Notes under the pieces: model-generated
Told to the model about the DNA's origin: nothing
Databases searched by the model: none
The model's input: only the letters and a program-made list of their open reading frames with translations
Program-made: the position numbers and the translations under genes
Part shown: positions 6,962-64,000 of the stretch, piece by piece
Position numbering within the stretch: position 1 is the stretch's first letter
Layout: the number at the start of each line of letters is the position of its first letter
Assembly: GCA_001972305.1 (NCBI GenBank)
Contig: BDDD01001358.1
Coordinates: 1-64,000 of the forward strand
Reading direction: 5' to 3'
Source of the DNA: Cephalotus follicularis
Lineage: Eukaryota; Streptophyta; Magnoliopsida; Oxalidales; Cephalotaceae
Length of the DNA stretch: 64,000 nucleotides

Positions 6962-8783
6962 TGTAACACCCCCGATCTGCGGGAGTCGCCATAGTGCATA
7001 ATACCAAAACTAAACAAATCACATCATGTTAAAAAGGTTCATCTTTATTAAAAATGTGATGGTTTAAAGCATATCCATAACATATAAAAACTGATCATAA
7101 CTGAAACTTATCCAAAATCCAAAAGTCATAAACTGAAATAACACATTGTTTAATTATCGGGTTCCACTATGACCACATAACATAAAAGGATCAGCTACTA
7201 GACGATCCTCAAACATATGGGAGTCACTCTCATCACACATTGCCCCTTCGCTCCCGATAACCTGCCGCATGGAAACAAAAACGCGGCTGAGCAAACCTCA
7301 GTACGGATATAGAATATAAAACAGTAAATAATATTTTAAAGCAGGAAGATTTCCAAAAAGAGGTTATAAAAGCTCAGTATTTCACCATTTCCAAAAATAT
7401 GATTTCATCAAATCATTTGAAAACAAAAACGTTTCCCAAACCATTACCATAAATCGTATTCAAACGATATAGTTTCATATACTTTCATAATCAGAAAAAT
7501 CAACTCATTTAATTTCACAATAAGGAGATGATTGCTTATCATTTCGTAAACATATCGTAACTGATTTCATAAAGTCAGAATATTTACTTCATAAAATATC
7601 AAATAACTTTATTTCCAAAAATCCAAACATACGGAATTTATAAACCAAGGTAAACATATTTACAAACCGAGTGATATCAAACCAGAATCTGTATTTAATC
7701 TCAAACGGAACTGAATGTGTCAAGGAACGAAGAATTCCGTACCTTATGCGCTTGCAAAGTACTTACGAATAGACAATTTTAAACGGAATCCACTTGAAAC
7801 TCAACAATCTATAAAGACATTCAAAATCATATGTATAAGAGTTTAAAACACATTAGAAGCATTAAATAGACTCATAAAAGTGTTTGAAAAAGATTCGGAT
7901 CGATTCGGGGGTCAAAGGAATCAAAACGGTTGAAAACAGCATATTCCAGGGCATGATAGTCGACTAGAACAGGGGTCCAGTCGACTGGTTTGGCTTGGCA
8001 GTCGACTGGACCATATGAACAGTCGACTACTCAACCAAAAATGCAGGTAGTCGACAGTGTTCTTCAATCCAGTCGAATACCCAAACATTCCAGTTGACTG
8101 TCCACTAAAACAGTCGGCTGTTTTGGGCGACAGAACATTTGGAAATCCGACGATTTGCTACTGAAATTGGTTCAAATGATTTCTACATTAAACTAGAGAC
8201 ATATGGACATAAACATATGATTATATATGACTTGTAGGTGATTTACAAACACCAATTTGACAAAGAAACGACCTGATAGTGATTTAACTTGCAAAAAGGA
8301 ACTAAGAAGACATTGCATGAACATGTCCAGATTCTGTGTTTTATCAAATACAGATGTTATAAACTCAGTTTGTGACATATATAAGTGCATAAAACGTGCA
8401 GATAACATCACTAACACAATGGCAACATGTTTGGGCAAGAATCAAAGACTCCAAGATACCAAGAGCACAAAAACTCAAAGTAAGCCATTGAAACAAAAAT
8501 ATAATTAAAGGAGATGAATTTACTGACCTTTAGTGATGTTAGAGAACCCAGAAAAAAGTAGGAAGAACACAAGTACAACACACAATTCGGCTGTAAACAG
8601 AAACAAAGAAAGAAGAATACAAAACCATGGTATTTTTAGACATACATAGCAAATTAAGAGAATTCAATCCAAGGAAACAATTAAAGGATTGAGATTACCT
8701 CTTGAACCGAAAACACATATAAAATCCGTAAAATATATTTACGAACCCGTAAAAATACATTTACGAACGAACAGGGTATTACA
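6962..8783 (-). repeat. 3' LTR of C-related chromovirus
   Basis: The minus strand reads TGTAATACCC (8783) to GGGGGTGTTACA (6962), 1,822 bp. Against the 5' LTR it lacks about 510 bp near the LTR start (the part represented at 13607-14125). The middles of the two copies are also rearranged relative to each other. Confidence 0.9.
7958..8119. repeat. CAGTCGACTG palindrome array, eight sites
   Basis: Octamers AGTCGACT or one-to-two-base variants start at 7958, 7979, 8000, 8021, 8049, 8071, 8092 and 8112. Steps are 21, 21, 21, 28, 22, 21 and 20 bp. Confidence 0.9.
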
Positions 8784-12131: not shown

Positions 12132-14198
12132 TGTAACCCCCCCGATCTGTGGGAGTCGCCACAGTGCATAATACCAAAACTAAACAAATCACATCATGTT
12201 AAAAAGGTTCATCTTTATTAAAAACGTGATGGTTTAAAGCATATCCATAACATATAAAAACTGATCATAACTGAAACTTATCCAAAATCCAAAAGTCATA
12301 AACTGAAATAACACATTGTTTAATTATCGGGTTCCACTATGACCACATAACATAAAAGGATCAGCTACTAGACGATCCTCAGACATATGGGAGTTACTCT
12401 CATCACACATTGCCCCTTTGCTCCCGATAACCTGTCGCATGGAAACAAAAACGCGGCTGAGCAAACCTCAGTACGAATATAGAATATAAAACAGTAAATA
12501 ATATTTTAAAGCAAGAAGATTTCTAAAAAGTACATTTGAAACTGAAATCTTAGCAATAAAATAATTTAAACATGTTTTATAAATTTCCACGGCAAAACAT
12601 ATAAACCATAAAGTGTACCTTTCCAAAACATAGGATCAATAAACTTTCAAAACGTAAAGCATATCTTTTCAAAAACATAGGTTCCATAAACTGAGCACCA
12701 AATCCCATAACATATCAGAAACACATAATAGCAAGGGGTTCGCGACACCCACATTGCAAAATAGAATTGCAGTGTACGGCACTACACATACAATTCCCAT
12801 ATCATATCATATCCCAAAACATATAACTAGGATCGATCCATACGCCTCTATCACAAATCCGATCCACGGATATCACAGAGAGACGCCGTAAACAAATCAC
12901 ACCGTTACGGAAAGTGTCATGCCCCCGTGCCAGGCTCACAGCATCAGGTAGTCGACTGTGTTCTTCAATCCAGTCGACTACCCAACCATTCCAGTCGACT
13001 GTCCACTAAAACAGTCGGCTGTTTTGGGCGACAGAACATTTGGAAATCCGACAATTTGCTACTGAAATTGGTTCAAACGATTTCTACATTAAACTAGAGA
13101 CATATGGACATAAAAATATGATTATATATGACTTGTAGGTGATTTACAAACACCAATTTGACAAAGAAACTACCTGATAGTGATTTAACTTGCAAAAAGG
13201 AACTAAGAAGACATTGCATGAACATGTCCAGATTCTGTGTTTTATCAAATACAGATGTTATAAACTCAGTTTGTGACATATATAGGTGCATAAAATGTGC
13301 AGATAACATCACTAACACAATGGCAACATGTTTGGACAAGAATCAAAGACTCCAAGATACCAAGAGCACAAAAACTCAAAGTAAGCCATTGAAACAAAAA
13401 TATAATTAAAGGAGATGAATTTACTGACCTTTAGTGATGTTAGAGAACCCAGAAAACAGTAGGAAGAACACAAGTACAACACACAATTCGGCTGTAAACA
13501 GAAACAAAGAAAGAAGAATACAAAACCATGGTATTTTTAGACATACATAGCAAATTAAGAGAATTCAATCCAAGGAAACAATTAAAGGATTGAGATTACC
13601 TCTTGAACTTTGAAGAATGATTTACATAGCAGATTATTGCACAATAACAAGGTAAATTCAGCTGACTTGCAAGAAGGAATGAAGGCAACATATAAAATGG
13701 CAAGATACTCCAAGAAAGCAAAAAGAAGGAGACATGATTTGACAAAAGGGAGAATAATGGGAACTTTTCTGGATTTTGAAATGGAAAAGGAAGGATTCTA
13801 ACATGTCTTTGATAGTGGGAATTGCTGGAAAGAAAGAGATGGTGGAAGGTAGTAGGAAGAAAGTGGGAGAAATGGATAAAATAAGAAAAGGAAATAAAAA
13901 GAATTGATAATGAAATGAATTAATAATGAAAAGAATTTGGAATTATAAAAATTAAAAGAATAATAATTGTTTTTAATAAAATAAGTTTTGGATTAAAATA
14001 AGTATTTATAAAACCCAACATAGCATAACATACCCAAATATCGGACCGGTATCATTCCGGACAATTCACATAAACCCGATTATTGGGCAACCGGACTTTT
14101 AAATTAAACAAAATTAAAAGCCCGAAAACACATATAAAATCCGTAAAATATATTTATGAACCCGTAAAAATACATTTACGAACGAATAGGGTATTACA
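12132..14198 (-). repeat. 5' LTR of C-related chromovirus
   Basis: 2,067 bp, from TGTAATACCC at 14198 to a CCCCCCGA-rich end at 12132 (minus strand GGGGGGTTACA). It keeps the 510-bp segment lost from the 3' LTR. In exchange, its middle jumps from the conserved GTCATGCCCCCGTGCC block (12916-12932) directly into the end of the palindrome array. Confidence 0.9.
12950..13020. repeat. CAGTCGACTG array remnant, four sites
   Basis: AGTCGACT-type sites start at 12950, 12972, 12993 and 13013 (steps 22, 21, 20). These are the sites beyond the 28-bp step of the full array. The other half was lost in the deletion noted for this LTR. Confidence 0.9.
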
Positions 14199-26570: not shown

Positions 26571-28707
26571 AAATGAATGTTATTGTATAGTTATGAGGTT
26601 AAGGTATAAATGGTGTAACTGTGATGAGGTCTGATTGAACATGTGCATAAGTGCTAGTTCCCTCTCCTCTACCTACAACATCTAGAGCGCGTATATTCCT
26701 CTTCCTTAAGCCTTGGAGACAGAGGAACCCCATCTCCCTAAAAGTGTAATGATTGTCCCATCTCGGCTCTTCTACCTGTAACTTTTGGAGTGCGTGCTCT
26801 GCTCCTCCTAATGCAGAGGAAGTCGAGGAGAATTGTTAATGACTGTTGAATGGTTTTTGTAATGATATGGATGCTTTCATTGTACGGTTTAGCCCTATTG
26901 CATCTCTCATGACATGCTTATACTTGCTGCACTTGCACTTCACACATGCATGAGTAGTAGTTCGTACACAACCAGTGGTTGCTGACCCATTCTCGGTAAT
27001 GGGTCAGATGCAGGTGGAGTTTCACAGCAAGCAGAGGATTAAAGTAGTCAAGTAAGTCTTCTCCTAAAATGCAGTCTGACTACCCAAGAGTATAAGAATG
27101 AAATTGTATATTATTGTATGACCTTCCGGGTTATGGCAGAGCTTATTTTGAACAGTATTGTATACGTTGGGTTTTATCCACACAAAACATGGTTTATTTG
27201 AGTTTTTCGCACGCACAGTTATATATATTCTAAATGTTCTATTTATGTTGCTGAATGCTTGATGGACTTCAATGGTACGGTTTTAACGCGTCAGGCCTTG
27301 GGGATTGACCCTTGGTGTAACACCCCCGGACGGTAGGAGTCGTCACAGGTCATAATACAGAATCTATCAAAACATAACATAACATATCTGAACATAAACA
27401 TAACTTATCAGCCAAAAACGTGGCAGTCATAGCATAACTGAAAACTTAAAAACTTCACAATTTCTTAAAAACTTAAACGTTTTCTAGTTCAAAACTAAAA
27501 CACATGTATCTTATTGTTCATGACCACTAAACAGAATACATAATGGGATCACACTCCTAGGGTTCCAAAATTTAAGGTGGTCATCTCTCGTTCACACATT
27601 CCCTCGCTGCTCCTGATAACCTACCGCATGGAGCGGCTGAGCAAACCTCAGTACGGATAAGGGAATTAAAACAGTAAACGATAAATTTTAAAAGCAGTAA
27701 GATTTCAATAAAAATTCATAACAAGATTCTTAAGCAATTAAAAACAATTAAATATTCGTAGAGTCACATTTGTACTTTCATAAAAATCCATATAACTTCC
27801 GAAACATTTACAAAACATTTCAAAACATCATATCACGATTCATAAGTCATACTGAGCCACATACATATCACATAACATATATTTGGCAAGGGAGGCGCTA
27901 ATTCCATATGCCCACTAGAATTGAAGTGTATGGCACTACACAAATCAATTCTCACATATGACATATCATATCGCATATCATATACTAGAATCGATTCATA
28001 CGCCTCTATCACATAGCGGATCCATAAATCCACCTCATGGGATTTATTCATAACATTCAGAGACGTCGTAGACTAATCACACCGCTACGAAAGTGTCATG
28101 TCCCCGTGCCAGGCCTACGACATGCTTATGGTACGCCCCATAGGTGGGTACAATACTCAATATTCAATCATTTCAAAAACATTGATTTATCAAAATCAAT
28201 TTAAAAACACATAAATATGCTTTCACAAAACATATTTGAAAATCGATCACAACGGTATCATAACATACATTTCATAGTCAAATCATCAACTCATTTATAC
28301 TTCGCTATAAAGAGGTGATCATAACATATCGTCATATGAATAAAGTCAGAATCATTCATAAATGTCAAAAACCAACTTCATTTTCGAAACATGTCAAAAC
28401 CATAAAACATTACTAAGTCTATAAAATGAGAACATAGAATAAAACTGATTTTAGTTCGATAATCAGATAGCCAAGGAACGATAGAAATCCGTACCTTTTT
28501 GCGTTCACAAAACTCTTATGAAAAGATTGTTCACTCAACTCCCTTTGAAGCACAATAATCTAAAAGACACCCAAAACCATTCATATAAGGATCTAAGAAA
28601 CATTAAAGACATTAAATAAACTTATAACAGTGTTTGGAAAAGACCCAGATCGATTCGAGGAACAAACAAATCAAAACAGTTGAAAACAACACTTTTCTGG
28701 GCAAAAC

Positions 28708-28911
28708 AACCGACTATTGCAGAGCACCAGCCGACTGGGGAAGCTTGGCAGTCGACTAATCACAAGGGCCAGCCGACTACACAAGACAGACAGCAGGTAG
28801 TTGACTGTCACTTAGATCCAGTCGACTACACAACCGAAGACAGTCGACTGTGTTCATATGGCAGTCGACTACTCATCCAATCCAGCCGACTGTCCACAAG
28901 AACAGCAGACT
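28708..28911. repeat. CAGTCGACTG palindrome array, ten sites
   Basis: Octamers start at 28708, 28729, 28750, 28771, 28799, 28820, 28842, 28863, 28884 and 28904. Steps are 21, 21, 21, 28, 21, 22, 21, 21 and 20 bp. Read in LTR orientation the 28-bp step follows the sixth site, as in the D array (38415). Confidence 0.93.
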
Positions 28912-29689
28912 GTTCTGGATGATAGAACAGTAGAAACTTGACAATTTCATGCAGAAACTGGTTTAAATGATTACCACATTAAACCAGGAACAAAAGAGCA
29001 TAAACATATGACATTATATGGCATTTAGATGATGCAGAAACATATAATTGACATAGGAATATCTGGACAGTGGCTTAACTTCCAAGAGAAAGCAAGAAGA
29101 ACATTTACATGTGCATACAATTATGTCCAGATTCCTGTCCATTATCATATGCAGACTTTTAAAACCAGTTTGTGACAAGTCTAGGTATACAAAACATGCT
29201 GACAGACTTACTAACATCATGACAGAACATATATACACAGGAAATCAAAACTTAAAGGACATTAAGAACAAAACTGGAATTATAACATTGTAGCAAATCC
29301 ATCACAATAGGGAATGAATTAACTAACCTGCAATGGTTTAATAGATACTGTAATTGCAGGAAGAACACCACAAAGTAGTTGTAAAATGGCTGAACAACAG
29401 GAAATCAAAGGAAGAAAACAACACAACTCAAAGCTTGCCAAAGAAATACGATCAAAAGACAACAAAAGACAACGACCAAACCTGATTTTGATGAAGAACA
29501 AAACAATCACAAGAACACAGCAATTCCCACTTGCAACTTCGGCAGTGCCAGGCAGTGGAACAACGGATGACATACGGACAAAGACAAAGCACTCTTAAAC
29601 GGGAAGAAGAAGAGAGAATGGAGGGAAAGATAAGGAAATAAATGGGACAAAATCAGATTAATAAGGAAGAAGGAGATTATAAACGTGTG

Positions 29690-29830
29690 GAATTGATGAG
29701 GGGAGGAGAGAGTTTGGGAGAAAGAGAGGAAAGAAAGAAAGTAAAGAAAGAAAGAAGGAAAGAAGAAAGAAATGGAAAGAATAAAATAAAAGAATAAAAT
29801 AACATAAAATAAAATAACATAAGATAAAAA
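29690..29830. repeat. Long polypurine tract near LTR start
   Basis: About 140 bp almost entirely A and G (GGAGAGAG, GAAAGAAAG runs) grading into AAAATAAAAT. The complementary pyrimidine tract occurs at the same position in the C LTR (44800-44970). Such CT-rich patches are common near plant core promoters. Confidence 0.75.
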
Positions 29831-30283
29831 GGATTTTATAATAAAAAGAAATTATTTTAGTATTTTGAAAGTTGTAAAATTAAGTTTGATAAAAAAATAA
29901 AAATAAAAATACATAACATAGGCCCAACCCAACGTACATTAACATATAAACATACCCAAAAATTCAGGCTGGTATTAGTCAACCCAAATCACAAAGGCCC
30001 AAAACAAAGGGCAACCGGACTTTAAAATTAAACAAAATTTAAAAAGCCCAAAAACAAACACATAAAAAGTCTTTAAAAACACTTACGAACAAGCAGGGTA
30101 TTACACTTGGGGTTTGGGGCGTTACAAAAAAGGATGCGGCTAAGAGATTGCACTTGTTATGGCCTGCCTCACAATGTTTTTATACTGTAAAACATTCATA
30201 AAAACGGAAAAAAATTTAACCTAATCGTTTAAGGAAATAATTACAATCTGAAAAACTTTCCATTTTGCTGCCAGGCGACGTAA

Positions 30284-34074: not shown

Positions 34075-34422
34075 GCCTCTCGGTGAGGGTGAGCTACAGG
34101 CCCCTCGTGCGAGGTACAGTTGTTATGGATTAGCCTCTCGGTGAGGGTGAGCTGTAGGCCCCTCATGCGAGGTACGGTAGTTATGTAGTAGCCTCTTGTT
34201 GAGGTTGAGCTGCAGGCCCCTCGTACGAGGTATGGTTGTTATGGATTATCCTCTCAGCGAGGGTGAGCTGCAGGCCCCTCGTGCGAGGTACGGATGTTAT
34301 GGATAACCCTCTCGGTGAGGGTGAGCTGCAAGACACTCATGCAAGGTACAGTTGTTATGGATTAGCCTCTCGGCAAAGGTGAGCGGTAGGCCCCTCGTGC
34401 TAGGTAGGATTGTTGTGATTAG
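34075..34422. repeat. 58-bp minisatellite with two hairpins per unit
   Basis: Six head-to-tail units of 57-58 bp start near 34075, 34133, 34191, 34249, 34307 and 34365. Each holds CCTCTCGGTGAGGG and CCTCGTGCGAGG, both inverted repeats. Degenerate continuation with CGGACGAGG motifs runs to about 34623. Confidence 0.9.
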
Positions 34423-34623
34423 CCTCTCGGCGAGGGCTAGTTCCTTGCATTAAATACGTCGGCCCCTTGTGCGAGGTATGGTCACTATGGCTGAGTTTAT
34501 CGGACGAGGGCTAGGGTTCGTGTAGTGATATCCTGGCCCATCGGACGAGGTTGAGATATGTTGCATGTGGTTTCTCGGACTAGGGCTAGGGTCCATGCCG
34601 TGATACGCCAGCCCCTCGGATGA
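34423..34623. repeat. Degenerate continuation of hairpin minisatellite
   Basis: Units become longer and irregular (GCCCCTTGTGCGAGG, GGCCCATCGGACGAGG, AGCCCCTCGGATGA) but keep the CCTCG and CGAGG arms. Confidence 0.65.
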
Positions 34624-36065: not shown

Positions 36066-36444
36066 TGTGACACCCCACTAAGAGTGGGCAAAGAGGAAAG
36101 GGCTATCCATGAGACGAAGCCGCCAAGAGGAATGTGATAGGAATGAACTGGATCCATCGAAAAGGGGAAAAGTATGGTTGTGCTCTATAAGAAAGGATCC
36201 TTGAACCTAATCATATAAGGCGCCTTTTAATGGATTGGTTGAGGAGTTAGTGGAAACTCCAATGTTAAGCATGCTACGCTCATGGCAAAACTAGGACGAC
36301 TGACCTCCTGGGAAGTCTGACCAATCCATCAAGTAGGACAACACCGTGATGGCCCACGTGGAAACGCAGATGTATGGGAGCTGTATGTTCTACGTGGGAC
36401 AAAAGCGGACAATTTCTCATGTGGTTAAGGTTCAGGTTGTTACA
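36066..36444 (+). repeat. TRIM left LTR
   Basis: 379 bp, TGTGACACCCCACT to GGTTGTTACA. It matches the right LTR except for a deletion of about 20 bp there and scattered substitutions. Confidence 0.9.
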
Positions 36445-36446
36445 AT

Positions 36447-36458
36447 TGGTGTCATAGA
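36447..36458 (+). other. TRIM PBS-like site
   Basis: TGGTGTCATAGA begins 2 bp after the left LTR. It resembles the initiator-Met site TGGTATCAGAGC with changes. Confidence 0.65.
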
Positions 36459-36496
36459 TGGACCCCCTCCAGTAGATGTGGTTCAGAGATGAACCA

Positions 36497-36514
36497 GACG
36501 GAAGCTGGTGGGCT
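36497..36514 (+). other. TRIM PPT-like tract
   Basis: GACGGAAGCTGGTGGGCT directly precedes the right LTR. It is purine-rich but not pure. Confidence 0.5.
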
Positions 36515-36871
36515 TGTGACACCCAACTAAGAGTGGGAAAAGAGGAAAGGGCTGCCCTTTGTGACAGGAATAAACTGGATCCATCAAAAAGGGGAAAAGT
36601 ATGGCTGTGCTATATAAGAAATGATCTTTGAACCTAATAATATGAGACGCCTTTTGATGGATTGGCTTAGGAGTTAGTGGAAACTCCAAGGTTAAGCGTG
36701 CTACGCTCAAGGTAAAACCAGGATTGGTGACCAACTGGGAAGTCTGACCAATCCATCAAGTAGGACAAAACCGTGATGGCCCACATGGAAACACATATGT
36801 ATGGGCGCTGTATGTTATGTGTGGGAAAAAAGCAGACAATTTCTCATGTGGTTAAGGATCGAGTTGTTACA
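36515..36871 (+). repeat. TRIM right LTR
   Basis: 357 bp, TGTGACACCCAACT to GAGTTGTTACA. It differs from the left LTR by one deletion after GGGCT and single-base changes. Confidence 0.9.
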
Positions 36872-36876
36872 AATCG

Positions 36877-37446: not shown

Positions 37447-40400
37447 TGTAATACCCCGCTTATTCATGTGCATATTTTCGGACCTTTAATTTAATTTGTT
37501 ATATTATGTTGGCCTATTTTGTTTTGGGCTCTTGTGTTTTGGGCTATATGATATGTTCTTTGGGCTTTTGATAATTGTGGAATAATGATTAAGGGAAAAG
37601 TAAAATTAATTGTTTTGTATTTTATTAGTTTTAAATAAGAATGTGATAAAAGTGTGGTATTTGGAAATAAAATAATGTAATATGGCAAAATTGTTTTAAT
37701 TGGAAAACAAAATCCTTTTATTTTGGTTAAAAGTTTATTTCCATTAATTTCTCCTCTCCCTCTCCCGTATGTCTCTCCCCTCTTTTCTCTTTATCACCGT
37801 TTGTTCCTCTCAATTCTCTCCCCCAATCCTGAATTTTATGCCCGTATTCCTTATCTTATCAGATTTTGTTCCCTCTTGCCTTATCTCACCCGACTTGGTT
37901 CTTTTCTTCTTGTTAAAAGTGCCTATGACATTGTTTTTGCATTGTTCTTATCTTCCTCTCCTGGTAGCCAAACCTGTATAATTTGGAATCTGTTTTCTTC
38001 TTCTTTGCTTCACCGAAATCAGGTTTGTTTTCCTTTAATGCTATGGTTTAGTTTATGGATAGTTTTATTTAGTTGTGTGCTCCCTAGACAATTGTTGAAT
38101 CCTTATGTTAAATCCTGCCACTCTATGAACTGTCATTGTTTTTGGAGTCTGTTGATCAGCCTGTAGGTGTCTAATATAGGTTGTAATCTGATTTTGATAG
38201 AAAAATTGGCCATATGACTAAGTATGCAATGAATTGAAATTTGCTTCTCCTTAAAGTGAGATCACCAGTGCATGATTCTGTGTGCCTAAATGCAACTGTT
38301 CTGTCACATAAGTCTTATTTTAAGTGATTATGATCCTCTAGTAAGTTGGTAAATTGTTTTTGACAGAAAATTTGCATAGGTTTGTTAGATTTCTACTGTT
38401 CTGTGGCCCAGAACAGTCGGCTGTCTATGTACACAGTCAACTGTTACGCTTTGAGTAGTCGGATGCCTTGTAAAATAGTCGACTGTTTTGCCTTGCACAG
38501 TCGACTAGACCCCTGTCACAGTCGACTGGCTGTAGCTCTGTTTGTGTAGTCGGCTGGCTATGTGATAGAGTCGACTACCATGCCCCAAACAGTCGACTGG
38601 ATTTAGTAACAGTCGGCTGGTTTTGTCCAGTAAATTTTTGGTTTCGAGTTTTGCTATCCGTTTGTTCTTCTAATGATTTGGAGTCTGTTTTAGACACTGT
38701 TTAATTGTTGATTGATGTTTGGAAGTGGTTTTTGAATCCTTATATGAATGATATTGCATCTTTTAGATTTTTGTGCTACGAGGGCAATTAGAAATTGTTG
38801 ATCAACTCATAAGTTATTTCTATGATCGCTTAAGGTACGTATGTCCTTCTTTCTTGGCTATCTCTCTGATTTTATTTGAGATAATTTCATATTTTGTATT
38901 TGGTATGGATTTCCTTTCCTTGGTTCCTCTATTTGTTTTATGGAGTTAAATTTGGACGATGTTTTTTAAGTACGGATTTTCGTTTCTTGATACATTCTTA
39001 CTGATTTTATTAGAGTGTAAATTCAGTTCTATTTTGCGAACAAAATATGGATTATTCATTTTGGTTAACATTCGGTTTTCTCTGAATTGAATCTGTTTTG
39101 TTTTAATGAAATGTGCGGATACTTTCGTTCTTTGACTATCATTTTGATTATGATCATAATAAATTTAGCTTTATGAATATGTAATCTTCGATTTAATGAA
39201 CTCCAATTTGCTCCATATTTTTAAATGTTTAGAAATAAAGTCGGTATGATATTTTAGTGAAAATGAATATTAGTTGGCTTTATATTTCGACTCTGAAATG
39301 TTTAAGCAATTGTTATGCAATCGTGTTTTATGGTGAAAATAAATAAGATGATTTTCTGATTATGAAAGTATAATGATTTTGATAATGAACATGACTTCTG
39401 CTATCGAAGTATGTTAAACGAACATGACTTTCACCATAGGAAGTATGTTAACTTTGAATAAGGATATACAGAGATATTTCCTGCCTAGGAAGGTACCATA
39501 GGGATGTCGTAGGCCTGGCATGGGGACATGACACTTCTGTAGCGGTGTGATTAGACTACGACATCTCTCTATGTTATAAATAAATCCCATGAGGTGGATT
39601 TATGGATCCGCTATGTATCATAGAGGTGTATGGGTCGACTCTAGTTATATGTTATATGTTATGTGATATGTTATGGATTCTGGGGATTGACTATGTAGTG
39701 CCGTACACATCTTTCCGTTTGGCATGTGGGCCTCATGAACCCCTTGCACCTATGCATATGTGTATGCACCTTGAATCTCGGTATGAGATTATGGAATCGG
39801 ATAAGTCTCTATTATTTGCTTTGGATCTCTGTGATGAGATTATGGAATCGGATAAGTTTTGTTTTGGAATCTTTAACTCGGATAAGGTTAAAGAAATTTT
39901 GAATATTGTTTTGGATACTCTTTTGGGATTTTCGATTGGCATTGAAAATTGGATTATGCTTTGAAAAACAGATTTTGATTTCAGATATCGTTTTGAGAAT
40001 TTGTTTACGTTTTAAAACTTGGATATTGGTTTTGAATTGATAGATTTGTATATGTGACTACTTTCCTTCGTTTTCTGAAATAATGTTGAATTATTTTATA
40101 CATGAGACATATGATATTTTAAGGTTCGGGTATTTTCTATTCTTTAAAGCATCATTTTATGTTTTATGAATTTATATCTGTACTGAGGTTTGCTCAGCCG
40201 CATTTTTGTTTTCCATGCGGCAGGTATTCTGGGACAGCATCCGGGCAATGTGTGATGAGCGAGATGTTACCTAAGTCTAAGGATCATCCAGGGGATTGGT
40301 CCGATTATGTTTAGTTATTTTATGGTTATGTTAGGACCCATTTTAAACAATGTTATGCCTTTTAGTTCATGACTTTGGTTTATGTTTTAGTTTTGGTTTA

Positions 40401-40626
40401 TGTTTAACCTTTCAGACTATGAATAAAGTTTCAGACTATGTTTTAGATTATGAATGTTAGAATCAGATATGCTATGAATGTTATGTTTAGACCATCACGC
40501 ATTTGAATAAAAGATAAGCTAAAATTTTGATAAAAAGAATAAAGTCGAGCCTTGATATATGTATATGTTATGTTCAGTTTTTGGTTAGGAAACCGTAACG
40601 ACTCCCGCAGTTCCGGGGGTGTGACA
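37447..40626 (+). mobile_element. Family-D solo LTR (C-related)
   Basis: TGTAATACCCCGC at 37447 to CCGGGGGTGTGACA at 40626, 3,180 bp. The TSD ATAAT is at 37442-37446 and 40627-40631. It shares with C LTRs the palindrome array, the GACACTTCTGTAGCGGTGTG block (39530-39549) and CTGAGGTTTGCTCAGCCGCA (40183-40202), but the rest has diverged. No internal region. Confidence 0.92.
38415..38618. repeat. CAGTCGACTG palindrome array, ten sites (D)
   Basis: Octamers start at 38415, 38435, 38457, 38477, 38499, 38520, 38548, 38569, 38591 and 38611. Steps are 20, 22, 20, 22, 21, 28, 21, 22 and 20 bp. The spacers between sites do not resemble those of C, but the register is the same. Confidence 0.93.
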
Positions 40627-44533: not shown

Positions 44534-45619
44534 GAGGTTGTAATAACCTGCTCGTTCGTAAATATATTTTACGGATGTAATGTGTGTTTTCGGGCTTTTA
44601 AATGTGTTTAATTTTCAAAAGTCCGGTTGCCCTTTGTTTTGGGCTTATGTGATTTGGGTTGACTGATACCAGTCCTAATAATTGGGTATGTTATGTTATG
44701 TTATGTTCGGTTTGGGTTTTATTTATTTATAATCCCAAAAAAATTATTTTATTTAAAACAAATTATTATCTTTTATTTTTAAAAATCCCTTTTATCATTA
44801 ATTGCTTATTTTTCCTTTTTCCTTATTTTCTTTTCTCTTCTTCCTTTTTCTTTCTTTCCTTTTCTTCTTATTTCCTATTCCTTTCCCTCCTTCACCCGAA
44901 GTCATCCCCTCCACCATAAATTCCACACGTTTTCTACATTCTTTTCCTTTCTAATTCCCCACGAATCCTCTCCTTTTCCTTATGTGGGCAGATTTGGTCT
45001 CCCCTTTTTCCTTTTGTTGTGCCATTGCCTTTTAAAAAGTGTGTCTCTCTTCTTTGTTATGTCACTGCCGATTCTGCCTTGTTAGTGTGTGATCATCTGC
45101 TGTGTAATTCGTTCTTCAAAATTCGAAGAGGTAATCTCGATCCTTAGTTGCCGAATTGTGACTGTGTGTTAGTGTTTCTTCTACTGTTCTTGTGTTCTGG
45201 AAATCATTACAGGTTAGTAGATTCGTCTTCCCAAGTGATAATTTTGTTCTAATGTCATGATTTGAGTTTTTATGCTCTTGGTGTCTTTGGTTTCAATTCC
45301 CATATCTAAATGTGTTGTCATTGTGTTAATATGATTGTCAACACGTTTTATGCACCTCGATATGTCACAAACTGAGTTTATAACATCCGTATTTGATAAA
45401 AGACAGAATCTGGATATATATACGCATTGTCTTCTTGCTTCCTTTTGTACGTAAACCCACTGTTGAATCGTTTTCATGTCGTTTATGTGTTTTTATGTCA
45501 CCTAGAAGTCATATATGATCATATAATTATGTCCATATGTCTCTGGTTTAATGTAGAAAACATTTCAATCAATTTCAGTAGTGAATTGACATGTTTCCAA
45601 CTGTTCTGTCGCCCAGAAC

Positions 45620-45802
45620 AGTCGGCTATCTCTGTGGACAGTCGGCTGCAATGGATGAGTAGCCGACTGCCACATGAATGCAGTCGACTGCCTTGGTTGT
45701 GTAGTCGACTGGAGGGATGAACACAGTCGACTGCCTACACATTAGTTTGAGTAGTCGACTGTCTTGCTTCCCCAGTCGACTGTAGCCCTGTTTTAGTCGA
45801 CT
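45620..45802. repeat. CAGTCGACTG palindrome array, nine sites (C)
   Basis: Octamers start at 45620, 45640, 45661, 45682, 45703, 45725, 45753, 45774 and 45795. Steps are 20, 21, 21, 21, 22, 28, 21 and 21 bp. The array lies about 1.1 kb inside the LTR and is preceded by CTGTTCTGTCGCCCAGAAC. Confidence 0.95.
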
Positions 45803-46154
45803 GTTTTGCCCAGAAATGTACTGTTTTCAACTGTTTTAATTCGTTTGATCCCCGGATCGATCTGAATCTTTTCCAAACACTGTTAAGAGTCTGTTTAATA
45901 CTTCTAATGTGTTTTAGACTCTTATACGTATGTTTTTGAATGCCTTTAGATTGTTGTGCTTCACGTGGATTCCGTTTAAATTGTCTATTCGTAAGTACTT
46001 TGTGAGCGCATAAGGTACGGATTATCTGTTCCTTGGCTATCTAATATTCGAAATGAAAACAGTTTTACTAAATTTCTTCGTTTATGAAATTTAAAATGTT
46101 TTATGACTTTGTCATGTTTCTAATTTAAAGTTGGTTTATGATTCCGACTTTATC

Positions 46155-46215
46155 GATACGATATGAAGTGATACGATATGTTATGATACGATATGTTATG
46201 ATACCGTTGTGAGCA
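46155..46215. repeat. GATACGATATG short tandem repeats
   Basis: GATACGATATG recurs about four times at steps near 16-17 bp, within the C LTR. Confidence 0.7.
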
Positions 46216-46484
46216 GTTTCCAAATATGTTAAGTGAAAACATATGTTATGTGATTTTGAATTGATTTCGATAAATCAATAATTTTGACATAAATACTGAG
46301 TATTGTACCCACCTATGGGGCGTATCCATAGGCACGTCGTAGGCTTGGCATGGGGACGCGACACTTCCGTAGCGGTATGATTAGACGACGGCGTCTCTGA
46401 GTGTACGAACGAATCCCATGAGGTGGATTTGTGGATCTGCTATGTATGATAGAGGCGTATGAATCGATTCTAGTTTATGTGATC

Positions 46485-46560
46485 TGAGGTGAATTCAGAT
46501 ATGTGATCTGAGGTGAATTCTGATATATGGTCTGAGGTGTGATCGGATATGTGTATGTGA
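46485..46560. repeat. TGTGATCTGAGGTGAATTC tandem repeats
   Basis: Three units of about 23-25 bp with TATGTGATCTGAGGTGAATT, the third diverged. Within the C LTR. Confidence 0.75.
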
Positions 46561-47217
46561 GAATTGACTTGTGTAGTGCCGTACACTTCAATTCTAGTGG
46601 GCATGTGGAATTAGCGCATCCCTTGCAAAAATTTATGATATGTGATATGTATATGGCTCAGTATGTTTTATGAACTATGTTTTATGATTTATGATCGAAA
46701 ATAATGTTTTGAAATGTTCCGTAATTGTTTCGAAAGATATGCAATTGTTATTTGAATATGATTAAACTGTTTTATCTGTTAAAGATTTCTGTTATGTTAT
46801 TATTGAAATATTAATGTTTTTAAATTACCGTTTACTGTTTTATTCCCCTTATCCGTACTGAGGTTTGCTCAGCCGTATTTTTGTTTCCATGCGGCAGGTT
46901 TTCAGGAGCAGCGGGGGACAGTGTGATTGAGTGATGACCACCTTATGTGTTGGATCCTTAGGAGAGTGATCCTTATGTTATGTTTAGTGGTCAGAAACAT
47001 GGATTATTATGTTATATGTTTTTAAATTGGAACTGAATTATGTTTTGAGTTTTCCGCAACTACTTAATATGTTAAATGGTTAAGTTTTAATGTTACGATA
47101 AGATTGTCACATTTTTGGCTGTTAATGGCTAATAAAGTAGACTTGTAATTTGATAATTAATGTTATGTATGATATGACCCTGTGATGACTCCCGCCGTCC
47201 GGGGGTGTTACAGATTA

Positions 47218-50081: not shown

Positions 50082-51412
50082 TAGCTTATGCTTCGAGGCA
50101 GTTGAAGCCTTATGAAGTGAACTATCCTACACATGATCTCGAGTTGGCAGCGGTAGTGTTTGCATTGAAGATTTGGATGCACTACTTGCACAGAGAAACT
50201 TGTGACGTCTTTACCGATCATAAGAGTCTCAAGTACATCTTTACGCAGAAAGAGTTGAACATGCGTCAGAGAAGGTGGTTAGAACTTTTGAAAGACTATG
50301 ATATGAACATTGAGTACCATCCTGGTAAAGCAAATGTGGTAGCTGATGCTCTTAGTAGGAAGAGTTCTGGGAGTGTAGCGGCTTTGCTTACTCAGCCGCA
50401 GTTGATCGCTGATATGGAGCGGATGGATCTACATCTGTATGTTCGGGGTTCTGATGGTTGTGTTACTGCGATGAATGTTGAGCCTACTCTTATATCTAGG
50501 ATTAAGACAGCTCAGAGTGATGATGGTGAGCTTTGGGCCTTAGTCCAGAATGTTGAAAAGGGTAAGCAGTCAGAATTCCGCATGGATGAGCAAGGTGTAA
50601 TATGGCTGGGTAATCGGATGTGTGTTCCATCAAATTCTTCTATCAGAGATGCTGTTTTGTCTGAGGCACACAGTTCTCCATTTTCTATACATCCAGGTTC
50701 TACGAAAATGTATAGAGACTTGAAGAAGAACTTCTGGTGGAATGGAATGAAAAGGGATGTTGCGGAGTACGTTTTGAAGTGTTTGATCTGTCAGCAGGTA
50801 AAGATTGAATACCAGCGTGCTAGTGGTTTGTTACAGCCCTTGGAAGTTCCGGTATGGAAATGGGAAAGCATTTCGATGGACTTTGTCACGGGTTTGCCGA
50901 GAACATTCAGAAGGCATAATGCTATCTGGGTAGTAGTGGATCGATTGACGAAATCAGCTCACTTCTTGGCTATCCGAGAAGACTTTTCTGTTGATCGTTT
51001 GGCTGAGGTGTTTCAGCAGGAGATAGTGAGACTGCATGGGAGTCCGGTATCCATTGTTTCGGATAGGGATCCTCGTTTCACTTTGCGGTTTTGGAAGGGG
51101 TTTCAGAAGGCTTGGGGTACTAGGCTCAGTTACAGTACAGCTTTTCATCCACAGACAGATGGGCAGACTGAGAGAACCATCCAGACCTTAGAGGATATGT
51201 TGCGGTCTTGTGCCTTGGAGTGGACTGGGAGCTGGGATGAGTATTTGAGCTTGGTAGAGTTTGCCTACAATAACAGTTGGCATGCTAGCATTGGTATGGC
51301 TCCGTTTGAAGCTCATTTTATTCCCCTTATCCGTACTGAGGTTTGCTCAGTCGCGTTTTTGTTTCCATGCGGCAGGTTTTCAGGAACAGCGGGGGACATT
51401 GTGATTGAGTGA
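50054..51412 (+). pseudogene. pol: RNase H and integrase of element C, 3' truncated
   Basis: RNase H residues Glu (HDLELAA), Asp (FTDHKSL) and Asp (VVADALSR) are present. Integrase has the zinc-binding [10 protein letters not shown] and CLICQQ, then DDE residues in MDFVTGL, SDRDPRF and DGQTERT. At about 51315, after MAPFEA, the frame runs into LTR sequence and ends with 32 unrelated codons at 51412. The GPF/Y region and chromodomain-like tail seen at 8838-9400 in the relative are missing. The true integrase part ends near 51313. Confidence 0.9.
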
Positions 51413-51690
51413 TGACCACCTTATGTGTTGGATCCTTAGGAGAGTGATCCTTATGTTATGTTTAGTGGTCAGAAACAAGGATTATTATGTTATATGTTTT
51501 TAAATTGGAACTGAATTATGTTTTGAGTTTTCCACAACTACTTAATATGTTAAATGGGTAAGTTTGAATGTTATGATAAGACTGCCACGTTTTTGGCTGT
51601 TATTGGCTAATAAAGTAGACTTATAATTTGATAATTAATGTTATGTATGATATGACCCTGTGACGACTCCCGCCGTCCGGGGGTGTTACA
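51316..51690 (+). repeat. 3' LTR fragment of element C
   Basis: The last 375 bp of the LTR, aligned base for base with 46838-47212. The join to integrase is at TTTTATTCCCC with no clear microhomology beyond one or two bases. Confidence 0.92.
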
Positions 51691-55575: not shown

Positions 55576-55843
55576 TGTCACACCCCGTTTTCGGTTCCAT
55601 ACCATAAGACAACATATATGGTGATTAAGTAGTTCTTGTGAATAATAATTCTTCATTTGAAAATCGTGTTTAAAACCATAAATTTGTGCATATAGCACAT
55701 AGTTTCATTCGATCAGTGAAATATCAGTAGTAATGATGTTAAATAACATCAAACAGTATATACTAGGTGGTGGTAGCATATACAATCAATAACAATTCAA
55801 ATCAGTAACAATTCAATCCATGGTATGCAATTTCTGCCCAGAC

Positions 55844-55912
55844 AGTCGACTGCCTTCAAGAACCAGTCGACTATTGGGTTGTGTAGTCGACTGTTTTCAA
55901 TGCCAGTCGACT
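55844..55912. repeat. CAGTCGACTG array, H 3' LTR distal
   Basis: AGTCGACT starts at 55844, 55865, 55885 and 55905 (steps 21, 20, 20). Confidence 0.92.
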
Positions 55913-57104
55913 GTTTTTGCCCAGAATGCAGGCAGAACAATGTAAATGAAATGCAAATTAAATGCCAATCAGTTCAATGCAAGTAGAAATTAACATACAT
56001 GAAATGCATGAACATATCTTCCAAAACATAACACTACCCCTACCTCAATTTGCTATCCCAAGATCAATTGAGTGATCTATCTCTTTAAGCTTCCAAGTCA
56101 CTTTTACACCAACATTCTTCAATCCAGCAGGTTCAATCAATGCATGCATGTTTATGGACACATGCATTAGCACAGGGAGTTCAACTAGATTACACAGCTA
56201 CAATTACCACTTTTATAGTAGCTTTTTACCAATCCTTTAAGTCTTAACATCCATTTTACAACTTCCTTTGCATTCTATGTCAACCATTAGTCAATCTCGG
56301 ATTCAATGATGTTATTGTTAACAGAAGATGTATGTATATACTTAGGAGAATCTGTAGGCATAACAACTAACAACAACAATTCGAAATGGAATCATTTAAA
56401 CTCTCTAAGCTTCATAGCTTCTTTCTTTTACCATTCCAAATCAATTCTCAAGTTGTTAACTTAATCATGTTTGACAGAAAGTATATGCATACTTAAGGAA
56501 TCAAGAAGCATATATTAAGTCATAACAGCAACTATAGATTGATTAGAGTTGTTAAGATTCTCTAAGTTGTCCATATTCTTACTTCCATTTACCAATTCAA
56601 TTCCATAATTCTAGAAGATGTTAAACATAACCATGTTAACAGAAGATTAACATCCTTATAGTTACCTTATCAACACATATCAGGGGGTTCGGATTTGGAA
56701 CTTACCAGGAGAAGTCCAAGCTTCCAAGTTTCTCTTTGAGCTCTAAACCCTCCACATGCAAGCTCCTCCAATCTTCTAGCAATTCTCTTCAAATCAGTGG
56801 TTTTTAACACTCAGTTTCAGCCCCTGGACAGCTGATATAGAGGTTAGGAACCTTTGAATTCGCCAGAGCATTTACTCAGCCTTCGTCCTTCCTTCTCTCT
56901 CTCACATGCATTCTTCTTTCCTTGTCATTTCTCACCTTTCTCTCTTTGATTTTGCAGGTGCCAGGTCTGTGACTTGCAGAGCACATGCAAGCATGTCTTT
57001 GCATGTTCTGGCAGCTTGTGTCGCCTTCCAACACTTGTCCCTTCATGCAAAGCCCCGTCATTCAGCTTACAGGCATGCACAGACACCTGTTCTGTCGAAT
57101 TTCC

Positions 57105-57182
57105 AGTCGACTGAATGCATCTGCCAGTCAACTGTCCTCAACACGCACTAGGCAGTCGGCTGTTCCCCTGTGACAGTCGACC
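57105..57182. repeat. CAGTCGACTG array, H 3' LTR proximal
   Basis: Sites start at 57105, 57126, 57154 and 57175 (steps 21, 28, 21), 170-250 bp inside the LTR start. Confidence 0.92.
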
Positions 57183-57356
57183 GTCCAAGGCTGTTTTAGG
57201 GTTTCATGAGTCCGGTTTTCACCAAACGAACCTCCCATCAATCCAAACAATTATCAATCACAAAATTATGATAATTTGGCAGATAATTCAATTAAAATGT
57301 ATATTTATTTTAAACATGGAAATGAATATACATTAATTGAATTTGCGGTTATTACA

Positions 57357-57370
57357 TTCCACCCTCCTTA
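57357..57370 (-). other. PPT of element H
   Basis: Minus-strand TAAGGAGGGTGGAA abuts the LTR start TGTAATAACC. Confidence 0.85.
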
Positions 57371-57404
57371 AAGAAAATTCGTCCTCGAATTTAGCTCTTA
57401 CATC

Positions 57405-57985
57405 ACATCTCAAAAAGGTGGGGAAAAATCTCCCTCATTCTGTCTTCACGTTCCCACGTAGCTTCCTCAGCTCCGTGGAAACACAAAAGCATTTTTACCA
57501 TAGGAATGGTCTTGTTCCTCAATACCCTTTCCATTCGATCCATTGTCACCTCGGCAATTCCGATACAAAGTCCATGGTCACATGTTCCAATTTCTATTCA
57601 ACCACTGGTAACGGTTGTAACATTCCAGCAGATTTCTGATGTTCAGCTTTCGTTCGCTGACAGATCAACATCTTGCCACATCTTCAGTAGTTTCCTGTTT
57701 CCTACCGCTCCACCCGAAACTCTTTTCCAGGTCGTGTCACATCTTGGTACTCCTTGGGTGGACACTGTAGCTCGACTGGTGAGCTTGTTGCAGTAGCTCA
57801 TCCTTGATAGTCTCATCATCAGGGACACATATCCTTCCTCGGAACCTCAATATGACATCCGTATGAATGGAGAACTCAGGCTTAGTGTCTAGGTTCTCAC
57901 GGATACTCCACAATTCAGAGTCGCTATTCTGAGCAATCAGAATACGCTCCAGAAGTTCCGGTTGTGCTCTCATATGTGTCACCAT
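57405..57985 (-). pseudogene. pol: Integrase remnant of H, catalytic core deleted
   Basis: 57737-57985 encodes the linker and zinc-binding start (RENLDTKPEFSIHTD, QAHQSSYSVHP). After further broken sequence, HVTMDFVSELPR near 57560-57600 holds the first catalytic Asp. It is joined directly to a chromodomain-like tail (RNKTIPMVKM, EEATWERED) near 57405-57550. The second Asp, the Glu and the GPF/Y region are absent. Confidence 0.8.
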
Positions 57986-58760: not shown

Positions 58761-58779
58761 CATCTCTTGGAAACTTGCC

Positions 58780-61198: not shown

Positions 61199-62698
61199 TG
61201 TCACGCCCCGTTATTTCATTACCATCTTTGACCAGCATATGTGGTGATATCAGTATTAAACATACATTCCAGCATATCATAATAATAATATATAACAGTA
61301 TGCGGAAGCAGTCAATAAGCCAGAATATATAAAAAAAAATACAAGTCTTCGCACGTATCCCATACTACGTGCGGTTACAAGCCAAAACATCCTTATCATA
61401 AGGAATACAACAGTAAAACGAGGCATGATTCGTTCGTTCATTACAGTACGTAACAACATAAAAAAATAACAACCTTAAAACGGTAAACAGAAGCTTCCAA
61501 AGCTTCAGCAGCAAGCTCCTAATGTCCTTGCTCAATCTGTAATGGTAGGGGTTAGCCGTTGTCCTCACTTGGCTAAGCAGCAAGATAGTGTATGCAAGAG
61601 AATATATGAATGCAATTATGTATGACAGTTTATATCAAAATATCATTTCAGTGTGCCAATAGATAAGCAATCATGCCAATTGGCCATAAACAGTACATAT
61701 GCATAGATACCGCTCAAGGGTACAATCAATTCAATCGTTCAGTGGTTTGGGTGTCACATGTCGCTAACTCCTAGCCCCCAACTGTGCACCACCTAACTAT
61801 CACCCTACACTCCGAGAATGATAGAAAAGGTATCAGTTACTACCGGCGTTAGCGGGTAGTTTAACAGTAATTCTGCAATGGCAGACAGTAGGTGATACTC
61901 TGGCCAACTCCTGGCACCCAGAATCACATCCATAGCCAGTGATAACCTCCATCACCGAACTACGGCAGTAAGCATAGACAATCAATTCAATCAGTACAAT
62001 CAGTAGTAATATTACATATATAATCAATATGCAATATCAAGATGGTTTCTTTAAGAAACATATAACAGTTCAGTAATCATGCATCTCATGTGAGGAAACG
62101 ATATCAGTACAGTAGTGGTTTCCGATTTGGAAACAAAACAGTCGGTACCTCTCATGTGGAGGAAAATAGTAGTTCATTTAACAATAAACGTTATTTTGAA
62201 AATGATAGTAAATATCATAAATCGTGCATGTAGCACTTGGTTGATTCAATAATTAGAATCTAAAACAGTAGGTGAAAACAGTATTTCACAAATCATTAGT
62301 TAAGAAATCAGTGGTTATCTTAACAATAAGCTTCTTTTGAAAATGATAGTGAATTATCATGATTTTGGGTTCAAGTCCCATAAATGGTTTTGATCTTTGA
62401 AATTATCAGTAGAAGTGGTGTTCATATCACCAAACAGTTGATATATACTAACATAAGTAGCATATACCGTATCTTTAATCAAATCGGCAGTTCTTGCAAA
62501 TAGTAGTTTGCATTTGAACGAAGGTTTAAAACCATAATTGTGCATATAGCACATAATTCATTCAATCCGTGAAATATCAGTAGAAATGATGTAAACTAAC
62601 ATCATACAGTATGTGCATTATGTTGGTAACATATACAAATCATCAACAATGCAAAACAGTAGCAATTCAGTGATCATTATGCAGTTCCAGCCCAGAAC

Positions 62699-62767
62699 AG
62701 TCGGCTGCCTTCAAGAACCAGCCGGCTGTTGGGTTTAGCAGTCGACTGCAATACATGGCAGTCGACT
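62699..62767. repeat. CAGTCGACTG array, second H LTR distal
   Basis: Sites start at 62699, 62720, 62740 and 62760 (steps 21, 20, 20), identical to the H 3' LTR. Confidence 0.92.
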
Positions 62768-63793
62768 GTTCTTGCCCAGAAATGCAGGCATAACAGTTTT
62801 GTGTAATGCAATTTCAGTGCTAAATCATTCCAATGCAAAGAGAAAATTAACATACACATATGCATGATCATATCTTCCAATACATAACACTACCCCTACC
62901 TCAAAACGCTATCCCAAGATCAATTACAATGATCTTTCTCTTTAAAGCTTCCAAGCCTTTTTTTCCAACCAATCCTTTAATCTCAGCAATTCAGTCTAGG
63001 CATGCATGTTATAACATATGCATCAGTTCAGTTTGTTCAGTAACATTTATAATTATTCAAATCAGTAGCTTAATCCATTAGTTCATTAAGCTTTATATCC
63101 CTCCATTTTACTACTTCTTATGCATGTTCAACTATTTTAATTCCTAATCTCTGAGTGGATAGCAGGTGTACATGCATACTATGAAGGAAAACAGTAGTCT
63201 ATTATGGAACTATCAACAACCTTCTAATCCAATTAGAGGTTACCTACTCATTTACTTGAGTTGAGTGCTACATTCCATATAAATCCACCGTCTTAAGATG
63301 TTAACTCATCAATCTTACTGTAGGTTAAACAATTTCCTAACCCCATTATCAGTTTACAACAACACAGAAGTTAGAATTCGAACTTACCAGGAAGATTCAA
63401 GATCCCAAGTTCCCACTTTGAGCTTCAAGCTCCAACTCTCCAATGCAAGCTTTCAATCAATCCAGCAACAAACCTTTCTTCTTTTAGTGTTTAACAACAC
63501 TCACAATCAGTCCATTCACAGATGATATAGGCTCATCAATCTAGAATTTCGTTAGAGTCATTTACTTCAGAAATTTCTCATTCTCTCACTCACATGCATC
63601 TCTTCGTCTTGTCATTTCTCTTATCTTACCTTCTTGATTCTTGTAATTGCAGGGTCTGGAATCTTGCAGGGGTGCAGAGGACATGCAAGGCATCACTTTG
63701 CATGTCATGGCTGCTTAGGACACTTGTCCCATTAATTTCCACGCCTCAAGTTCAGTTTGACACCTGCACAGACCCATGTTCTGTCGAAATTAC

Positions 63794-63871
63794 AGTCGAC
63801 TGGATTCATGGGGCAGTCGACTGGACATTACACGAGTCAGGCAGTCGACTGATACCCTGTGTCAGTCGGCT
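63794..63871. repeat. CAGTCGACTG array, second H LTR proximal
   Basis: Sites start at 63794, 63815, 63843 and 63864 (steps 21, 28, 21), identical in spacing to 57105-57182. Confidence 0.92.
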
Positions 63872-64000
63872 GTCAAGAGGGAAATTAGGGTTTCTTAGGT
63901 TCGGTTTTCATCAAACGAACCGCCATTCATTCCAAGTAAAATTACCAATCATAAATTGAAATAATTGGACATTAAATTCAAATAAGTGCACATTTTATTA

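Follow-up and report, generated by a model that had tools for sequence, protein, structure and literature searches.

Arrays of palindromes in the LTRs of plant retrotransposons have been described in Sireviruses. The Sirevirus LTR repeated motif (RM) is a palindrome of 10–20 bp, present in 8–32 copies per element, that precedes the TATA box within the LTR and recurs ahead of the ENV-like gene (PMC2829016). RMs were called Sirevirus-specific and were absent from the classic elements compared, all of which were Ty1/copia; the passages of PMC2829016 considered here did not treat RM spacing or helical phase. In maize Sireviruses, palindrome clusters occupy a cis-region of the LTR with strong predicted secondary structure (PMC10760457, citing Bousios 2016). 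The maize palindrome is also the commonest motif in structured Helitron regions, outside its own superfamily, and the passages considered from that source (PMC10760457) contain nothing on sharing with Ty3 elements or on phasing. The Sirevirus papers were the closest found in the open-licence literature, as judged by title and the start of the abstract. No title among the matches listed for the word forms of the site described below concerned LTRs, and no paper in the open-licence literature combined LTR retrotransposons with helical-turn tandem binding-site enhancers.

The 64,000 bp stretch of DNA analysed here (the window) contained a 10 bp palindrome with a consensus of approximately (C/T)AG(T/C)CG(A/G)CT(G/A), the commonest cores being GTCGAC and GCCGAC. 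When up to two mismatches were allowed, the 10-mer matched 69 times in the window, compared to 17.3 ± 4.1 (largest 30) over 100 shuffles. Arrays of this site were found in the LTRs of elements A to E, as follows (steps are read in LTR orientation):

44539..47212, + strand: 5′ LTR of element C (TGTAAT...TTACA); the 5 bp duplication GAGGT flanks the element
45619..45803, + strand: C array, nine sites in blocks of 6+3, steps 20,21,21,21,22,28,21,21
51316..51690, + strand: 3′ LTR of C, truncated, without the array part
37447..40626, + strand: D, a solo LTR with target duplication ATAAT
38414..38619, + strand: D array, ten sites in blocks of 6+4, steps 20,22,20,22,21,28,21,22,20
27316..30105, − strand: B, a solo LTR with target duplication CCAAG
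28707..28912, − strand: B array, ten sites in blocks of 6+4, steps 20,21,21,22,21,28,21,21,21
6962..8783, − strand: 3′ LTR of element A, a Ty3 chromovirus; the duplication CCCAG flanks the element
7957..8120, − strand: array of the A 3′ LTR, eight sites in blocks of 4+4, steps 20,21,22,28,21,21,21; two units (42 bp) short of B
12132..14198, − strand: 5′ LTR of A, its middle about 270 bp shorter than that of the 3′ LTR and half of the array lost
12949..13021, − strand: array of the A 5′ LTR, four sites left
55576..57356, − strand: 3′ LTR of element E (Ty3 type), a separate LTR group
57104..57183, − strand: E array b, four sites, steps 21,28,21, upstream of the TATA-like word CTATATC
55843..55913, − strand: E array a, four sites, steps 20,20,21 (21,20,20 in window direction)
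63793..63872, − strand: array b in the second LTR of E, steps 21,28,21
62698..62768, − strand: array a in the second LTR of E, steps 20,20,21

Elements A, C and E carried Ty3-type pol, and the solo LTRs B and D, which have no pol, were placed by LTR likeness. The ORFs of A showed the Ty3 order of RNase H, integrase and C-terminal chromodomain (Pfam PF17919/PF17917, PF17921, PF00665, PF24626 and PF00385), with PF00385, the chromodomain, scoring 28.8 against a cutoff of 25.1 and PF00665 scoring 28.3, under its cutoff of 32.6; there was no Pfam match to reverse transcriptase within the two A ORFs tested. Among the best 120 of 8000 scored, the relatives of the A pol protein came mostly from daisy-family plants (Tanacetum, Mikania, Smallanthus, Helianthus, Arctium and Centaurea), and at lower ranks from a few other plants; on this basis the host is probably of the daisy family. 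The peptide patterns used found no relatives of the chromovirus in viral contigs, and an array flank word gave no hit. Element E, which was absent from the initial annotation, is a fifth carrier with two arrays in each of two LTRs. Its LTR had no blastn match of at least 80 bp at 1e-10 to the other LTRs of the window. The minus strand of E encoded RNase H and RVT_1 (one match above the cutoff and one just below it), no chromodomain was detected across eight broken E ORFs, and an E-related locus, L050, encoded Ty3 gag, protease, RNase H and integrase.

The two LTRs of E (55576–64000) differ by 20–30% and in length, which is more than the LTRs of one recent insertion would, and a 0.7 kb tandem duplication at 60510–61899 is the source of the length difference; E may be old or composite. 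Elsewhere in the window there is a 58 bp tandem repeat of about six copies (34013–34475) and a segment of about 380 bp that occurs as two direct copies, 427–449 bp apart and identical at 83% (36066–36872). Long near-collinear copies of approximately 90–92% identity lie 19–21 kb apart at 1381–6961 and 22026–26414 and continue at 14198–15725 and 26409–30756; these two copies are the apparent insertion targets of A and the solo LTR B.

The step series that the initial annotation had given for C, D, B and the A 3′ LTR were all reproduced exactly. Expressed as offsets from the first site in LTR orientation, the sites of B lie at 0, 20, 41, 62, 84, 105, 133, 154, 175 and 196 and those of D at 0, 20, 42, 62, 84, 105, 133, 154, 176 and 196, an agreement within 1 bp across 196 bp. 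C and A fit this grid to within 1 bp once losses of 21 bp and 42 bp respectively are allowed for. Apart from such unit-sized gaps (21 bp and 41–42 bp), the indels in the A–D arrays are single bases, and one-base step shifts are followed by compensating shifts, although these events are few and weak on their own.

A count across the genome (1.577 Gb, 9746 contigs) revealed 38,225 exact site pairs at steps of 18–24 bp, compared to 137 for a reversed-pattern control. A wider sample was made up of the window and 130 kb of the same genome (20 stretches of contig 1) picked around exact site pairs at 18–24 bp; because every such locus was selected by one exact pair at 18–24 bp, the share of 21 bp steps in this sample is inflated. 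The 130 kb held 46 arrays of at least three sites. In the window and the 130 kb together, 231 steps of up to 150 bp separated strong sites: 159 at 19–23 bp, 19 at 27–29 bp and none at 11–18, 24–26 or 30–38 bp, under a strong-site rule devised for this analysis (a looser rule yields single steps of 33 bp and 23 bp). The others were at 40–43 (23), 48–52 (15), 60–65 (7) and 72–93 bp (8), and these longer steps are in part multiples that span one weak site. Steps near 21 bp and 28 bp with a near-empty interval between them were common to two Ty3 LTR groups and to copia elements. Block sizes were even in 87 of 97 blocks (34 of two sites, 40 of four and 13 of six) and odd in 10, in a count that includes related copies and scores steps of 40–44 bp as one missed site.

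Matches from outside plants were taken as unrelated. All five viral-contig loci, when read out, had a single site pair each, and of the 37 bacterial loci the three read out consisted of near-identical tandem units. Bacterial loci L006, L010 and L035 are AGTCGACT tandem repeats at 21 bp or 22 bp with near-identical units. The bacterial repeats are unrelated, but they warn against relying on the bare pattern.

The proposal that all sites of an array lie on the same side of the helix is borne out within blocks, where phasing at 10.5 bp per turn gave R values of 0.88–1.00 in eight arrays and of 0.96–1.00 in the A–D blocks. It does not hold across the 28 bp step, which at 10.5 bp per turn shifts the phase by about 240 degrees; at that pitch whole-array phasing of A–D reached just 0.61–0.69 and was rejected. 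A fitted turn of 10.25–10.30 bp lifts the whole-array R of A–D to 0.85–0.90, so that a helical turn of about 10.3 bp would partly restore phasing across the whole array.

An alignment of the arrays site by site showed that sites were more alike than spacers in all six comparisons among A (3′ LTR), B, C and D, with 82–90% of site positions and 55–68% of spacer positions identical (sites and spacers respectively: 66/80 and 48/83; 61/70 and 48/73; 67/80 and 45/82; 81/90 and 61/94; 85/100 and 66/97; and, for C and D, 78/90 and 50/90). Fisher P values ranged from 6e-6 to 0.007, the former being that of C and D, for which spacer identity was scored after gapped alignment. The spacers of C and D had been described as largely unlike each other, which is roughly so, but those of A, B and C are clearly homologous. 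Units were paired with the help of spacer likeness and gaps were allowed in spacers, and each of these choices tends to raise spacer identity. The shortened array of the A 5′ LTR gave three comparisons in the same direction (35/40 and 23/32; 35/40 and 24/33; 34/40 and 16/32). Between A and B, the six central bases of the site were no better kept than the outer bases (37/48).

The two LTRs of A, which were identical at insertion, behaved differently: 37/40 site positions and 32/33 spacer positions were the same, with no protection of sites. This points to a constraint between active lineages and not on dead copies, as site decay that is as free as spacer decay after insertion is expected if selection acts on active copies alone.

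Comparing the divergence of sites with that of spacers, as had been suggested, was extended to five sets of copies, and sites diverged less in these as well as in the six A–D comparisons. Mean pairwise identities of sites, spacers and flanks were 0.949, 0.678 and 0.672 for E-b arrays; 0.863, 0.657 and 0.692 for six-site E-a arrays; 0.921, 0.624 and 0.619 for four-site E-a arrays; 0.924, 0.778 and 0.839 for A–C; and 0.921, 0.737 and 0.745 for copia arrays. The rows entering the identity and indel measures were 11/16 for E-b, 10/13 for E-a, 4/6 for the copia LTR and 4/7 for A–C; the E-b rows left out were the second LTR of one element, one misoriented row, one six-site row and two without a strand call, and three D-type, four copia-ENV and one L064 array lay outside the five sets. 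The central CpG was present in 306 of 324 sites, whereas the observed/expected CpG ratio was 0.13 in spacers and 0.45 in flanks; as sites were allowed up to two mismatches, a CpG loss was detectable unless joined by other changes. Although the counts include related copies and hence are not independent, the comparisons make selection on the sites well supported.

Selection on the spacing itself had been proposed from C and D, and from these two alone the argument is weak, since indels are at least as common in these arrays as in their flanks (4.4 per 100 bp between C and D, compared to 2.4 and 2.5 in the flanks). In a neutral simulation that took its indel rate and sizes from the flanks, and from whose size list two single-base B–D events were omitted, the probability of all nine steps staying within 1 bp was 0.03–0.61, so that chance fits. 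The wider sample is more favourable to the proposal. Indel events in the E-b set numbered 0.92 per 100 bp in the array and 2.45 in the flanks, and 0/40 array indels exceeded 1 bp compared to 94/170 flank indels, these being pairwise events among related copies that are not independent. E-a arrays had 0.30 and 0 events per 100 bp, with 1.69 and 2.39 in the respective flanks. The rates were 1.03 in the array and 0.31 in the flanks for the A–C set, and 1.08 and 1.02 for the copia set. We regard selection on spacing as supported, with the caveats given.

The copia-type carriers in the same genome were five elements, at loci L047, L051, L054, L058 and L059. Pfam analysis identified copia gag (PF14223) in L047, L054 and L059, where the arrays precede this copia-type gag, and RVT_2 (PF07727) in L058; in L051 a PF20167 ORF alone was detected. 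Their LTR arrays contained 12–18 sites, mostly in groups of four, or nine in one clipped by the end of the stretch. A TATA box lay 43–44 bp after the last array site in both LTRs of L047 and in L059; L051 and L054 had a like aligned flank ending at TAT, and the array L054_7717 extends past its locus. Further arrays of four or five sites adjoined PF20167 ORFs in L051, L054 and L058, the small array of L058 being situated between copia RT and the PF20167 ORF, and in L047 an array lay approximately 0.5 kb before a PF20167 ORF that scored 39.4, under the cutoff of 45. From its place, we infer that PF20167 marks the ENV-like ORF.

Polypurine tracts of the form AGGGGGAG were present three times each in L047 (+ strand), L051 and L054 and four times on the minus strand of L047. 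None were found in L058 and L059, whose fetched stretches may stop short of the element end, nor in the Ty3 loci L050 and L064 or the window. The Sirevirus LTR/PBS junction, CA/ATTGG...TATCAGAGC, together with a C-rich signal was identified in L054 (CCCCCCC...CTACAATTGGTATCAGAGA) and L059 (CCCCCCC...CAACAATTGGTATCAGAGC), and the junction of L047 deviates from it (TTTCAGTTGGTATCAGAGA). Taken as a set, the five copia elements display Sirevirus traits, and their layout matches the RM description in the passages considered from PMC2829016; the copia arrays are therefore of a known kind, Sirevirus repeated motifs. By pol type, the Ty3 arrays of A, C and E do not reside in Ty1/copia Sireviruses.

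Ty3 LTRs and Ty1/copia Sireviruses of one genome thus have this site array in common, together with spacer words that resemble each other. At eight or more letters, 18 of 51 copia spacers matched those of A–D and 26 of 51 matched those of E. Random 11-mers from the same loci gave mean counts of 5.8 (maximum 12) and 6.3 (maximum 13) respectively, and composition shuffles agreed. The flanks of all four E arrays matched the A–D arrays when inverted (0/1000 shuffles as good), while in transcribed orientation P was 0.002, 0.067, 0.531 and 0.179. Array b (57104..57183) matched solely when inverted and array a (55843..55913) matched best when inverted and weakly as transcribed (P 0.002).

The flanks of E-a, E-b, copia LTR and A–C arrays had no mutual match at E 1e-5 save via the outer flanks of the array L055_2567, and one 37 bp match linked a copia-ENV flank to a copia LTR flank. 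Flank comparison revealed D and L064 to be relatives of A–C, so the LTR contexts that are independent are few. Clustering of 50 arrays gave five clusters at 100 bits and eight at 150. A loose cutoff had joined all 55 arrays and was replaced by these stricter ones. The large mixed cluster at 100 bits hangs together by the outer flanks of L055_2567, which is probably a nested insertion. The likeness of the spacers and the inverted E flanks point to an exchange of site–spacer cassettes among LTRs; an alternative reading is that the spacers are alike because of shared binding needs within them.

Much of the regularity could have come about by descent with tandem duplication, a 21 bp (or 42 bp) unit having been copied in an ancestral LTR with no selection on spacing. 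This would fit the unit-sized differences from B (42 bp fewer in A, 21 bp fewer in C), the GCCCAGAA-like words at both ends of several arrays and the 28 bp step of A–D, which lies at one homologous place and is for that reason partly a matter of shared descent. The outcome of the neutral simulation, the array indels of the A–C and copia sets, which are not rarer than those of the flanks, and the similar 21 bp or 22 bp steps of the bacterial repeats are compatible with it too. However, the spacers of one array resemble each other at most slightly more than shuffled spacers do (0.588 in D compared to 0.528 ± 0.026 when shuffled, and a smaller excess in the other three), sites are near-identical within an array in a way that spacers are not, whereas the three bacterial repeats have near-identical whole units, and the same steps are seen again in the LTRs of E and of copia elements, which have no flank match to A–D. 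Descent of this kind is, in our judgement, unlikely to be the explanation.

Rather less likely is that the palindromes act in RNA, adjacent sites forming hairpins in the LTR transcript that serve packaging or dimerisation or, as has been proposed for maize Sireviruses, are a small-RNA source for silencing. Predicted folding is very strong compared to shuffles (z −9.3 for C and −5.9 for D), small RNAs gather at the palindromes of maize Sireviruses according to the portion of PMC10760457 considered (citing Bousios 2016), and the inversion of E is no argument against action in RNA, because the site reads the same both ways. When sites were fixed and spacers shuffled, however, folding energies were ordinary in seven of eight arrays (P 0.17–0.975; 0.020 for A), and with spacers permuted P was 0.045 for C and at least 0.20 for the rest. 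RNA structure was rejected as the selected property, as spacer shuffling showed that in seven of eight arrays the spacers add nothing beyond the self-complementary sites. The copia arrays come before the TATA box and E-b before the TATA-like word CTATATC, not the sole such word in that LTR, which would place them outside the main transcript, and hairpins need no 21 bp steps. Such folding may be a by-product of the sequence itself; if the arrays are transcribed, the modelled hairpins may matter for silencing. Conserved splice-donor-like words, AGGTTAGT and GGTAAGT, were also noted upstream of the A–C and E-a arrays, at 45211 in C, at the homologous places in A and B and at 56706 in E; the A–C and E-a arrays may consequently lie in a leader intron.

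Elements of these kinds are usually silenced, and a host chromatin or silencing factor might read the sites, with the elements keeping them by hitchhiking or because their loss is not favoured. The CpG depletion of the spacers (0.13) is consistent with methylated DNA, but losing the sites would benefit the elements, and the sites are the best conserved part in five of five copy sets. We consider this reading highly improbable.

Our preferred reading, which we hold to be probable from the sequence comparisons, is that the array serves LTR retrotransposons as a cis-regulatory module bound by an activating host factor, and that cassettes of it have moved between LTRs. A dyad site with its CpG kept, arranged in phased pairs and followed by a TATA box in copia elements or by a TATA-like word in E-b, resembles a homotypic enhancer read by a dimeric factor of the host. 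The palindromes would be bound by a DNA-binding protein, most probably an activator, that drives LTR transcription. Against this, the A–D arrays are approximately 1 kb into LTRs that contain other TATA-like words, and may be downstream of the transcription start. The palindromes would be used mostly in even blocks of two, four or six with sites two helical turns apart, such that bound dimers would be aligned on one face of the DNA, and blocks would be separated by 27–29 bp in Ty3 elements or approximately 48–65 bp in copia elements. The module would serve at least two Ty3 LTR groups (A–D with their relatives, and E) and Ty1/copia Sireviruses, its unit cassettes of site and spacer having been moved or inverted between LTRs. 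The sites, their spacing and conservation, their presence in both superfamilies and the TATA box just after the copia arrays were observed directly, and from them we infer protein binding, activation, a candidate protein and cassette movement. A more tentative proposal, which we are slightly inclined to doubt, is convergence of two superfamilies of one plant lineage on a single phased-palindrome cassette that is read by one host factor and exchanged between them.

To our knowledge, few plant retrotransposons have a known activating mechanism. In this genome, elements of two superfamilies are marked by a single short, tightly spaced word that makes up tens of thousands of exact pairs, and the host protein that would drive them is directly testable with one bait. 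Regulatory DNA may have been traded between unrelated retrotransposons, and binding sites of a host factor may have spread through a 1.6 Gb genome via mobile DNA. If cassettes have been exchanged in this manner, a large part of the mobile DNA of the genome would be under the control of a single host protein.

As to the protein, a lead is given by CRT/DRE words catalogued in PLACE as CRTDREHVCBF2 (GTCGAC), CBFHV (RYCGAC) and DRECRTCOREAT (RCCGAC), the cores GTCGAC and GCCGAC both fitting the CBF/DREB word RYCGAC as given in the passages considered (PMC9138379, PMC4886440). This word was fitted by 90 of 101 copia sites, 70 of 79 A–D sites and 119 of 132 E sites (L064 left out). In contrast to the DRE core, the present site is a longer, 10 bp dyad, CAG...CTG. 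CRTDREHVCBF2 presumably denotes barley CBF2, and we know of no need of CBF/DREB proteins for palindromes or 21 bp pairs; the match of words makes CBF/DREB a candidate host factor. The dyad-symmetry sites of EBNA1 in EBV oriP are palindromes 21 bp apart, centre to centre, that are bound cooperatively on one face of the DNA. The present arrays would work in a similar way, in an unrelated system and with an unrelated function.

The nearest likeness is to Sireviruses themselves. The Vitis Sirevirus RM, CGGTCGACCG, has GTCGAC in common with the present site, and the present word differs from the RM of the passages considered in that it also occurs in Ty3 LTRs and in steps near 21 bp and 28 bp (PMC2829016). 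The maize Sirevirus palindrome, CACCGGAC...GTCCGGTG in the portion of PMC10760457 considered, is a different word. By analogy, the Ty3 arrays would work like Sirevirus RMs, yet they sit outside Sireviruses; within the open-licence literature, Sirevirus palindrome arrays are known, and their sharing with Ty3 elements and their quantised spacing appear to be new.
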